DNA of 33,705 nucleotides from Pseudonocardia sp. (lineage in GTDB: Bacteria; Actinomycetota; Actinomycetes; Mycobacteriales; Pseudonocardiaceae): contig JAODNO010000545.1 in NCBI GenBank assembly GCA_025465235.1, forward strand, positions 1 to 33,705, given 5' to 3'. Below are positions 23,187-25,092 of this stretch, piece by piece. Numbering within the stretch: position 1 is the first letter of the stretch; each line of letters starts with the position of its first letter. The translations under genes and the position numbers were made by a program. The notes below the pieces were generated by a model, which had not been told where the DNA came from, searched no databases, and saw nothing but the letters and a program-made list of their open reading frames with translations.

Positions 23187-24245
23187 TCAGCGGCGCGCCG
23201 CTACCGACTCTGCCAGCTCGTCCAGCAGGGTCGCTGTCGTCTGCCAGTCCATGCAGGCGTCGGTGATGCTCTGGCCACGCGTCATCGACGGCCCGAGGTC
23301 CTGCCGACCGGCCACGAGGAAGCTCTCCATCATCACGCCGGCGACGCCCGGCTCGCGCGTCGCGATCCGGCCGGCGATCTCCCGCACGACCTCGGCCTGC
23401 CGGACGTGGTCCTTGCCGCTGTTGCCGTGACTCGCGTCGACGATCACCCGGGCCGGCAGGTCGACCGCCCGCAACCGGTCCAGAGCGGCACCGACCGATG
23501 CGGCGTCGTGGTTCGGACCGGACGAGCCGCCGCGCAGGATGACGTGGCAGTCCGGGTTGCCCGCCGTCGTGATGAGCGCGGCGAGGCCGTCGGGGTTGAT
23601 CCCCATGAACACGTGGCTCGCCGCGGCCGCGCGGACGCCGTCCACCGCGACCTGGACGTCGCCGTCGGTCGAGTTCTTGATCCCGACGGGCATCGACAGC
23701 GCGCTGCACAGCTGCCGGTGCACCTGGCTGGCCGCGGTCCGCGCGCCGATCGCGCCCCAGCTCACGACGTCGGCGAGGAACTGCGGGGTGATCGGGTCGA
23801 GGAACTCGCACCCGACGGGGAGCCCGAGCGCCGAGACGTCGAGAAGCAGCCGCCGTGCCGTCCGGAGCCCGGTGTTGACGTCGAAGGTCCCGTCCAGGCC
23901 GGGGTCGTTGATCAGGCCCTTCCAGCCGACCGTCGAGCGCGGCTTCTCGAAGTAGGCCCGCATGACGATGCGGAGCTCGCCGGCGACCCGGGAGGCGTGC
24001 TCCGCAAGTCGGTCGGCGTAGTCGAGCGCGGCTTCCGGGTCGTGGATCGAGCACGGGCCGACGACGACGATCAGCCTGTCGTCACGGCCGTCGAGGATGT
24101 CCACGACCTCGGCGCGAGCCTGGGTGACGGTCTCGGCCACCGTCTCGTCGATCGGGAGCTCGTGGCGCAGCAGGGCAGGGGACAGCAAAGGGCTGATCCG
24201 GGCGGTACGGTGCTCGTCCAGCGCGGGGACGGCGGTGCGGGTCAT
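23187..24245 (-). CDS. aroG: Class I 3-deoxy-7-phosphoheptulonate (DAHP) synthase
   Basis: This 352-aa enzyme condenses phosphoenolpyruvate with erythrose-4-phosphate, the first step of the shikimate pathway. It has the AroFGH-type (type I-alpha) signatures VVVGPCSIHD, FEKPRSTVGWKGLINDP, GCEFLDPITPQF, GARTAASQVHRQL, VGIKNSTDG and DASHGNSGKDH, with normal family length. The ATG at 24245 follows a GA-rich site (GAGAGAG at 24260-24254). The 150-bp leader encodes a short peptide with consecutive Tyr-Trp-Phe codons and can fold in alternative ways, so expression is probably tuned by aromatic amino acid supply. Many actinobacteria also hold a plant-type (class II) enzyme; whether this strain does cannot be seen. 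Confidence 0.96.
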   Translation of the reverse strand: MTRTAVPALDEHRTARISPLLSPALLRHELPIDETVAETVTQARAEVVDILDGRDDRLIVVVGPCSIHDPEAALDYADRLAEHASRVAGELRIVMRAYFEKPRSTVGWKGLINDPGLDGTFDVNTGLRTARRLLLDVSALGLPVGCEFLDPITPQFLADVVSWGAIGARTAASQVHRQLCSALSMPVGIKNSTDGDVQVAVDGVRAAAASHVFMGINPDGLAALITTAGNPDCHVILRGGSSGPNHDAASVGAALDRLRAVDLPARVIVDASHGNSGKDHVRQAEVVREIAGRIATREPGVAGVMMESFLVAGRQDLGPSMTRGQSITDACMDWQTTATLLDELAESVAARR

Positions 24246-24326
24246 GACGTCGGCTCTCTCTCAGGCGAGCCGGACCCGTCGACGATCCCACCGAGCCGGC
24301 TCGTGATCCGGCTCGTGGGGGGAAGG
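24246..24326 (-). promoter_or_regulatory. Alternative hairpins in the aroG leader (candidate attenuator)
   Basis: On the transcript a strong hairpin pairs CCCACGAGCCGG (24319-24308) with CCGGCTCG-G-TGGG (24299-24287), 12 bp with one bulge. A smaller hairpin pairs CGGCTC (24272-24267) with GAGCCG (24256-24251), which touches the GA-rich ribosome-binding region of aroG. CGAGCCGG at 24303-24296 can instead pair with CCGGCTCG at 24273-24266, releasing that region. The structures are mutually exclusive. There is no U-run, so control would be translational or Rho-linked. Folding was done by eye. Confidence 0.5.
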
Positions 24327-24392
24327 TCAGCGCAGCGGTTCGCCCGCCGACCCGTCACGGGCCGGAGCGGTAAACCAGTACTGGCGCTGCAC
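24327..24392 (-). CDS. YWF leader peptide upstream of aroG
   Basis: GTG 24392 opens a 21-codon frame ending at TGA 24327. It begins MQRQYWFTAPAR: three consecutive aromatic codons TAC-TGG-TTT (24380-24372), the three end products of the pathway whose first enzyme is encoded 80 nt downstream. TTT is a rare codon in DNA this rich in GC. TAGAGT lies 7 nt before the GTG and may be a -10 giving a leaderless message; no Shine-Dalgarno is seen. A short hairpin (24366-24347) follows the Phe codon directly. Such arrangement is that of a ribosome-sensing attenuator. Too short for usual gene finders. Confidence 0.65.
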   Translation of the reverse strand: MQRQYWFTAPARDGSAGEPLR

Positions 24393-24402
24393 GAGATCGA
24401 CT

Positions 24403-25092
24403 CTAGCCGATGGGCTCCGGCATGCGCTCCACCGCGTAGGAGAGCTCGAGCAGCGCGCCGGTGACCGGGTCGGCGAGCTCCACCCGCCAGCGGTCGGCGA
24501 ACTGGTCGACGCCCGGCAGCATCGCTACGGTGCCGGACAGCAGCACGGTGCCGGGCACCAGGAGCTCACCCAGCTCATCGAGCCAGAACCGGGGCGGCAG
24601 CAGGGCTGCCAGCGGGGCGTCCTGGATCAGCTGCTCCGGGCCGCCGTCCTGCGCCACCCACGCACGCAGCCGCAGATCGTCGAGATGGTCCTCGACGTCC
24701 ACGAGCCGCCACGCGCCGCGCCCCAGCACGTCGAGGCCTGCGTTCTTGCTCCACGCGACGCCGTGCACCTCAAGTTCCCGGTCGGTGTGGTCGCAGGCGA
24801 CGGTGAGCAGCAGGTCCCCCGGCGCCTCGCCCGCGACGACGAGCGCCCACTCGGCCTCGCCGGACGTACGCCCGTGCTGCACGGGCACGCCGTCGACCTG
24901 TGCGGCCAGGTAGGGCGCCACGGGGTAGAGGGCGGGCGTCACCGCGGGCGCGGGGATCCCGAGCTCGGCCAGCTCGGCGACGTGCGCCGCGACTTCCTCC
25001 TGCTCACGGCCCGCGTAGCCGCCGTTCAGCAGCCGGATGACAGTGACGGCGGCGGTGGTGCCGTCGGGCAGATCGAAGATCAGTTCGCTCAT
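24403..25092 (-). CDS. DUF2848 family protein
   Basis: This 229-aa protein matches the DUF2848 family by its central pattern TSGEAEWALV (about 77-86), CDHTDRELEVHGVAWSKNAG (about 100-119) and VEDHLDDLRLRAWV. The family is distantly like fumarylacetoacetate-hydrolase-fold proteins and has no settled activity. The ATG at 25092 is preferred because GGGAGAG lies upstream and the protein then begins MSELIFDLPDGT; an in-frame extension repeats MSEL and appears spurious. It is divergent from the MHS transporter and close to an amidase and GntR gene, suggesting a small catabolic locus. Its end lies only 10 nt before the aroG leader peptide. Confidence 0.85.
   Translation of the reverse strand: MSELIFDLPDGTTAAVTVIRLLNGGYAGREQEEVAAHVAELAELGIPAPAVTPALYPVAPYLAAQVDGVPVQHGRTSGEAEWALVVAGEAPGDLLLTVACDHTDRELEVHGVAWSKNAGLDVLGRGAWRLVDVEDHLDDLRLRAWVAQDGGPEQLIQDAPLAALLPPRFWLDELGELLVPGTVLLSGTVAMLPGVDQFADRWRVELADPVTGALLELSYAVERMPEPIG

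Follow-up and report, generated by a model that had tools for sequence, protein, structure and literature searches.

Conserved Tyr-Trp-Phe leader frames upstream of actinobacterial class I DAHP synthase genes suggest a ribosome-sensing attenuator

Can a single short leader peptide report the supply of tyrosine, tryptophan and phenylalanine together to the gene for DAHP synthase? The question is raised by a stretch of 33,705 nt from a Pseudonocardia species (contig JAODNO010000545.1), referred to here as the window, in which an earlier note had recognized a 21-codon frame with the consecutive codons TAC-TGG-TTT on the same strand as a DAHP synthase gene. That reading of the locus is correct. 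The leader peptide frame, VQRQYWFTAPARDGSAGEPLR, occupies positions 24327..24392 of the minus strand, with a GTG start at 24392, 21 codons and a TGA ending at 24327. Its proposed control codons TAC-TGG-TTT (Tyr-Trp-Phe), the last of which is a rare Phe codon, lie at 24372..24380 on the minus strand and are read from 24380 to 24372. Among ATG- or GTG-initiated frames with 8-35 codons, it alone in the window brings Y, W and F together inside a span of five residues.

The gene that would be controlled encodes a class I DAHP synthase of 352 amino acids (23187..24245, minus strand). The protein matches TIGR00034 (aroFGH) with 489.7 bits, compared with a cut-off of 173.2, and also matches Pfam PF00793. 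Its ATG at 24245 is separated from the leader stop codon by 81 nt. A -10 promoter hexamer of the leaderless type, TAGAGT, was likewise found where the earlier note had placed it, 7 nt 5' of the leader GTG (24400..24405, minus strand, read from 24405 to 24400). As judged from the sequence, this gap is the spacing to be expected of leaderless transcripts, and the frame probably lies on a leaderless mRNA. The TAG of the hexamer (24403-24405, minus strand) also serves as the stop codon of an upstream DUF2848 gene.

Existing family collections offered no match. A search of the leader peptide against NCBIfam returned no family up to an E-value of 1, and the leader region matched nothing in Rfam at the gathering score. 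One Rfam match, to mir-278 at an E-value of 0.85, was dismissed as chance.

Distribution of the leader frame

Within Pseudonocardia, the leader is present in all 33 examined genomes that hold the class I gene (32 gene-holding genomes among 36 that comprise the window's own genome and others of the genus, plus locus L117). The pattern TGGTTTN6CCGGCCC, which joins the end of the aromatic codons to the RNA segment that follows them, was found at 33 sites, which are distributed over 32 of 60 genomes. All but one of these sites (32) are located directly upstream of DAHP synthase, and the reversed version of the pattern has 4 sites in the same 60 genomes. No site occurs in the four genomes of the genus that do not have a class I gene, and one genus leader (L017) differs from the pattern by a single base. 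Class II DAHP synthase genes are carried by 58 of the 60 genomes; in the window's own genome and five relatives, no such leader was found in the 0.7-0.85 kb upstream of them.

For the wider survey, a class I gene (E-value of 1e-60 or better) was identified in 254 of the 397 genomes in a sample of the order, and 110 genes were picked by hand for spread among the matches listed for this sample. A total of 173 actinobacterial upstream regions, drawn from loci in a scan of genome contigs and from regions fetched by hand, was compared with 828 control windows representing both strands of adjacent DNA, which is mostly coding. The 173 regions include at least two duplicates (L040/L133 and L047/L171). 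Left out were L037 and L038, which duplicate L011 and L025, and L034, which lacks a leader and whose gene is 46 percent identical. A frame with Y, W and F was present in 147 of the 173 regions vs 6 of the 828 control windows. By this comparison of sequences, the leader frame occurs beyond chance. Conservation of the frame, of the aromatic codons within it and of the leaderless -10 spacing reaches far past close relatives, and conservation was the test that the earlier note had proposed.

A second rule, which called for a frame of 10-40 codons with at least three of Y, W and F residues in six, picked leaders in 150 of the 173 regions, and all three amino acids are represented in 145 of these 150. 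Five of the picks are spurious (L091, L156, L186, L216 and L217), and in L178 and L183 the wrong frame was picked where a true leader is present. Conversely, the rule passed over three leaders that have two of the three aromatic amino acids, those of L181 and L186 (YQRF, without Trp) and of L201 (SWRF, without Tyr). Reading by eye gave a count of 148 leaders in the 173 regions. The sequence TANNNT is located 6-7 nt 5' of the start codon in 117 of the 150 picked leaders.

The form of the aromatic core changes considerably among these bacteria. Representatives in Pseudonocardiaceae carry YWF, YYWF, YFWF, YWWF or WYRF, and elsewhere the core reads YFWF in Rhodococcus, YWRF in Mycobacterium, Williamsia, Dietzia and Kribbella, SYRWF in Micromonospora and WYAYF in Arthrobacter. 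Two genomes of the order that are only 2.4-2.7 Mb in size (L203 and L209) carry WRFYF. Because the core keeps its aromatic residues while its form varies, we count this pattern in favor of an attenuator that senses the ribosome. We are close to certain that the leader is real and functional, and consider it very probable that it acts as a ribosome-sensing attenuator of DAHP synthase.

Regions without a leader mostly precede genes that are no more than 60 percent identical to the DAHP synthase of the window. Further leaderless regions belong to Nocardiopsis (L046 and L053), to Bifidobacterium-type loci (L065 and L091) and to extra gene copies (L156 and L189). The latter two are second class I copies in two genomes of the same family, about 61 percent identical and lacking an aromatic leader, and have perhaps been freed for other uses. 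Two loci from one genus of the same family (L149 and L150, with genes 71 and 69 percent identical) keep the region of RNA segment 3, described below, and the part with the Shine-Dalgarno sequence. No aromatic frame could be read in either, and they are perhaps decayed leaders.

The most constant feature of the core is its end. The core's final Phe residue is encoded by TTT in 142 of 149 picked leaders. In comparison, the DAHP synthase genes of 26 loci from the genus use TTT once and TTC 142 times (n = 143), and the gene in the window uses TTC for all 6 of its Phe codons and TTT for none. The gap between TTT and RNA segment 1 is 6 nt in 93 of the 95 loci whose segments could be placed. A fixed codon at a fixed distance would be understandable as ribosome geometry, given the footprint of a ribosome.

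RNA segments between the leader and the Shine-Dalgarno region

Reading of the sequences yielded six RNA segments, all on the minus strand, that could form competing helices. Segment 1 (CCGGCCC, 24359..24365) begins 6 nt 3' of TTT inside the frame and would pair with segment 2 (GGGTCGG, 24347..24353), which is also inside the frame. Segment 3 (24308..24326), which follows the leader stop codon and ends in GAGCCGG, could pair either with leader RNA, namely segment 1 plus the loop, or with segment 4 (GAGCCGGCTC, 24293..24302). Segment 4, in turn, could pair with segment 3 or with segment 5 (CCGGCTC, 24267..24273), and the partner of segment 5 is segment 4 or segment 6. This last segment (GAGAGAGAGCCG, 24251..24262) is the Shine-Dalgarno region, which is predicted to be sequestered by segment 5. 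These helices are an addition to what the first reading of the sequence had offered.

If such pairings matter, each segment should fit its own partner better than partners from other species. Own partners were therefore compared with partners dealt among species, using 47 non-redundant loci and 2000 permutations. Own partners fit better for 4:5 (z -6.0), for 5:6 (z -6.9) and for leader:3 (z -5.2), each with 0 of 2000 permutations doing as well, although the 47 sequences share kinship and these counts are thus not probabilities. Four pairings that were not predicted gave z-scores of -2.4 (4:leader), -0.2, -1.1 and -0.5. Covariation is uninformative for helices 1:2 and 3:4, both of which are close to invariant.

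The 4:5 pairing was also examined in a fixed register, which places segment 5 without using complementarity and could be anchored in all but 6 of the 47 loci. All three variable pairs are formed in 17 of 41 loci, compared with a permutation mean of 7.2 and a maximum of 14 (5000 permutations). Examples of these variable pairs include GAG/CTC, AAG/CTT, GAA/TTC, CAG/CTG, GGG/TCC and AGA/TCT. RNAalifold, applied to a MAFFT alignment of 30 loci, recovered helices 1:2 and 3:4, and did not recover the alternative helices.

The architecture thus includes mutually exclusive helices, one of which is built from leader-coding RNA, and 4:5 and 5:6 exclude each other by sharing segment 5. It also includes a helix that would close the Shine-Dalgarno sequence and an alternative that would free it, as in a translational attenuator, and these two helices (5:6 and 4:5) co-evolve. 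Sequence comparison establishes the frame, its codons, its position and the co-evolution of leader:3, 4:5 and 5:6; competing helices of this kind connect the leader with the Shine-Dalgarno region, and the three of them that vary have co-evolved.

These elements can be assembled into a mechanism. The 5' end of the mRNA would lie at the GTG or close to it, and the 21-codon leader would be translated by a ribosome. When charged Tyr-, Trp- or Phe-tRNA is scarce, this ribosome would wait at TAC, TGG or TTT beside segment 1. The waiting ribosome would weaken hairpin 1:2, and segment 3 would pair with leader RNA. With segment 3 so engaged, segment 4 would be free for segment 5, the Shine-Dalgarno sequence in segment 6 would open and DAHP synthase would be made. 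When aromatic amino acids are plentiful, a ribosome at the stop codon would cover the first half of segment 3. Because that half would then be unavailable for pairing with the leader, helices 3:4 and 5:6 would form and the Shine-Dalgarno sequence would be closed. The transcription start, the translation of the leader, the geometry of the ribosome and the direction of the switch enter this scheme as presumed steps. We assign a probability of roughly 0.6 to the full model, in which stalling at three aromatic codons acts through the chain of helices to open the Shine-Dalgarno sequence of DAHP synthase.

Folding, output and the amino acids sensed

Predicted folding gives this model mixed support. 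Free of a ribosome, the 158-nt RNA of the window is predicted to fold with -81.3 kcal/mol (z -3.3) into hairpins 1:2, 3:4 and 5:6, which corresponds to the closed state. The modeled ribosome masked the RNA as far as 12 nt from the A-site codon, counted from the first base of that codon. Masking everything upstream of the ribosome is a simplification, and the resulting values are equilibrium estimates of what in reality would be a kinetic switch. Across the 47 loci, the mean predicted cost of opening the Shine-Dalgarno sequence is 6.44 kcal/mol for a ribosome with the stop codon in its A site, 5.78 for one at TTT, 4.86 for one at the preceding codon (codon -1) and 4.59 for one a further codon back (codon -2). 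Codon -1 encodes Trp in all but one of the 47 loci, and codon -2 encodes Tyr in 24 and Phe in 23.

Compared with dinucleotide-shuffled leaders, the real leaders are predicted to open more cheaply for stalls at codon -2 (4.59 vs 5.50 kcal/mol, p 0.003) and codon -1 (4.86 vs 5.33, p 0.01). For a stall at TTT, real leaders are worse than shuffled ones (5.78 vs 5.38 kcal/mol, p 0.009). With a footprint of 8 nt, computed for real leaders only, the TTT stall costs 4.62 vs 6.32 kcal/mol on the stop codon, which is near the values for the other stalls. RNA free of ribosomes is predicted to open its Shine-Dalgarno sequence more cheaply (5.33 kcal/mol) than RNA in the stop-codon state. For the window itself, the cost is 9.5 kcal/mol on the stop codon, 5.7 on the Tyr codon, 6.0 on the Trp codon, 6.5 on the Phe codon and 6.5 without a ribosome. 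The Shine-Dalgarno sequence is paired in the minimum-energy fold of the window for every stall state.

The output of the proposed switch could be translation or transcription, and the loci differ in what they offer. In the main set, which includes Pseudonocardia, Amycolatopsis, Rhodococcus and relatives, fewer than five T residues occur in the 12 nt after helix 3:4 in 82 of 84 loci. A scan of positions 24150-24550 found no intrinsic terminator, and the locus in the window does not present the terminator hairpin and U-tract before the gene that typify a transcription attenuator. Elsewhere, segments 3 and 4 are separated by an intrinsic terminator in 11 loci of the Micromonospora, Kribbella and Actinoplanes types. 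Among the 59 leaders that do not belong to the main set, 51 are followed by a terminator-like hairpin under a loose rule (a stem of at least 6 and 3 T in 6 nt). In 26 of these 51, the end of the best leader duplex is no more than 5 nt away from the hairpin (between 5 shared and 4 free nt); the remaining 25 have their best duplex elsewhere, often entering the hairpin.

In L047, L078, L198 and similar loci from Mycobacterium, Arthrobacter and related bacteria, a long helix between the leader and RNA after its stop codon ends a few nucleotides from the terminator stem. Such helices barely overlap the stem, and classical antitermination is therefore not an obvious explanation for the Mycobacterium and Arthrobacter types. 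Two loci from one genus of the same family as the window (L151 and L152) have YWWF leaders and a small terminator-like hairpin after segment 3, and are possible intermediates between the two outputs. Given the terminators elsewhere and the Shine-Dalgarno hairpin in the main set, related leaders seem to be wired to different outputs.

These patterns bear on the rival explanations, some of which accept the leader and dispute only its output or its signal. The same leader, sensing the same amino acids, might end transcription prematurely in the main set as well, through Rho or through an unusual terminator. The 11 related loci with an intrinsic terminator after segment 3 speak for this proposal, as do the terminator-like hairpins after 51 of the 59 other leaders, L151 and L152 of the same family included. 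We nevertheless judge it improbable, at about one chance in four, because T residues are so scarce after helix 3:4 in 82 of 84 main-set loci, no terminator was found between 24150 and 24550, and the helix that would close the Shine-Dalgarno sequence co-evolves. Translation is the probable output in the main-set clade. A slightly stronger competitor, though still an unlikely one, holds that phenylalanine alone is sensed, with TTT placed where a stall would be meaningful and with Tyr and Trp as passengers. TTT and the 6-nt gap are indeed the most fixed features of the leader, L181 and L186 do without Trp and L201 without Tyr, and according to a review, aroR of Corynebacterium glutamicum reacts to Phe limitation and not to Tyr availability (PMC11802643). 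Against this proposal, all three residues persist in 145 of 150 picks (a few of them spurious) despite a changing core, and predicted folding favors stalls at the two codons before TTT.

The earlier note had claimed that a ribosome slowing at any of the three codons would sense Tyr, Trp and Phe together. This claim stands in part. The core mostly retains Y, W and F, with the exception of the three leaders that have two of the three, and folding agrees at the two codons before TTT and at TTT itself only with some footprints. On balance, we lean toward the sensing of all three amino acids. Two more radical explanations would dispense with sensing by the ribosome. If a structured RNA, such as one that binds a ligand, were the conserved unit and the frame incidental, one would expect the peptide tail to track the RNA segments, which it does (codons CCG 29/30, GCC 30/30 and GGG 30/30), and the strong fold of the window (z -3.3) and the segment-3 region retained without a frame in L149 and L150 would fit as well. 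However, the aromatic residues persist where the RNA sequence is wholly different, as in Mycobacterium and Arthrobacter, the tails after TTT are made of whole codons (42 nt in 30 leaders and 45 nt in 2, in a frame chosen beforehand), and no Rfam family is matched at the gathering score; we regard this explanation as very improbable. Hardly any more credit is due, and perhaps a shade less, to the idea that the leader boosts DAHP synthase translation through reinitiation and senses nothing. Such an effect on translation has been suggested for leader genes (PMC4833913), but here 81 nt separate stop from start, the aromatic codons are fixed and alternative helices are present.

Relation to known leaders and significance

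The closest precedent is aroR of C. glutamicum. There, a Phe-Tyr-Phe leader precedes aroF and, according to a review, Phe limitation enhances transcription and Tyr availability has no effect (PMC11802643); the leader was reported in a survey of small RNAs (PMC4046766) and was replaced in an engineering study (PMC7356990). The window shares with aroR a short aromatic leader before an actinobacterial class I DAHP synthase gene, and stalling is proposed for both. A further likeness is the WRFYF core of L203 and L209. The window differs in having Tyr-Trp-Phe in place of Phe-Tyr-Phe and, in contrast to the enhanced transcription of aroF (PMC11802643), it has a Shine-Dalgarno hairpin and no terminator that could be found. 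Accordingly, aroR is the precedent for a multi-aromatic leader, and the present leader is a variant with Tyr-Trp-Phe.

Attenuators of the trp type in Streptomyces and Corynebacterium (PMC1262725) are similar in combining a leader with regulatory codons, a biosynthetic gene and alternative helices, and trpL1 of Streptomyces lividans is likewise leaderless (PMC8079986). These attenuators respond to Trp only and use terminators as their output (PMC1262725; PMC8079986). A 2005 survey of actinobacterial amino acid genes states that none of the phenylalanine and tyrosine operons had conserved RNA structures upstream (PMC1262725), and a reannotation of S. lividans gives eight leaders, none of them aromatic save that for Trp (PMC8079986). 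A literature search found no report of such a leader in Pseudonocardia or Amycolatopsis.

Sequestration of a Shine-Dalgarno sequence is the output of the translational attenuator of ermB. The signal in that system is a drug (PMC8274638), whereas a wait at aromatic codons is proposed here. The ileS T-boxes of Actinobacteria also sequester the Shine-Dalgarno sequence, and unlike the present leader they take tRNA as their signal (PMC1262725). Farther afield, the uORFC-13-1 motif of Acholeplasma resembles the present leader in placing a uORF with a Phe codon before the DAHP synthase gene aroF, but it belongs to an unrelated lineage, has Phe only and carries an intrinsic terminator (PMC8632094). 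Regulatory RNAs have also been predicted upstream of aroF and aroH in Shewanella (PMC2659441).

Outside Actinobacteria, frames with Y, W and F were found at 19 of 50 class I loci vs 19 of 1368 control windows, although L076 among them is unconvincing. Examples include FYFYFFWY in Burkholderia-type loci and FYFWYY in Xanthomonas-type loci. Proteobacterial class I DAHP synthases (L073, L075, L077, L081, L085-L088, L090, L093, L095, L099, L101, L103, L106, L107, L109 and L115) likewise have short upstream frames rich in Phe, Tyr and Trp, such as SAKFYFYFFWYLRPLADREG, and many of these frames have another tail (PLAEEG or PLADREG).

A broader reading can be offered tentatively, at somewhat less than even odds. 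One old leader may read all three aromatic amino acids at the same time and gate the first step of the shikimate pathway throughout Actinobacteria, with a fixed geometry of ribosome and helix (UUU and 6 nt). In the group of Pseudonocardia, Amycolatopsis and Rhodococcus, it may have no terminator and may open or close the Shine-Dalgarno sequence by way of successive, mutually exclusive helices. If this reading is true, the proteobacterial leaders with three aromatic amino acids would be either as old as the actinobacterial one or convergent with it.

DAHP synthase sets the flow of carbon into tyrosine, tryptophan and phenylalanine, and into aromatic antibiotics. If the proposed mechanism is true, actinobacteria that make antibiotics, together with their relatives, would possess in this single sensor for three end products a basic regulator that the 2005 survey of these bacteria did not report (PMC1262725), and one that would provide a lever for strain improvement. 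The loci also make up a natural series, with different outputs attached to one leader, and would allow one to test why a rare Phe codon stays at one fixed place.
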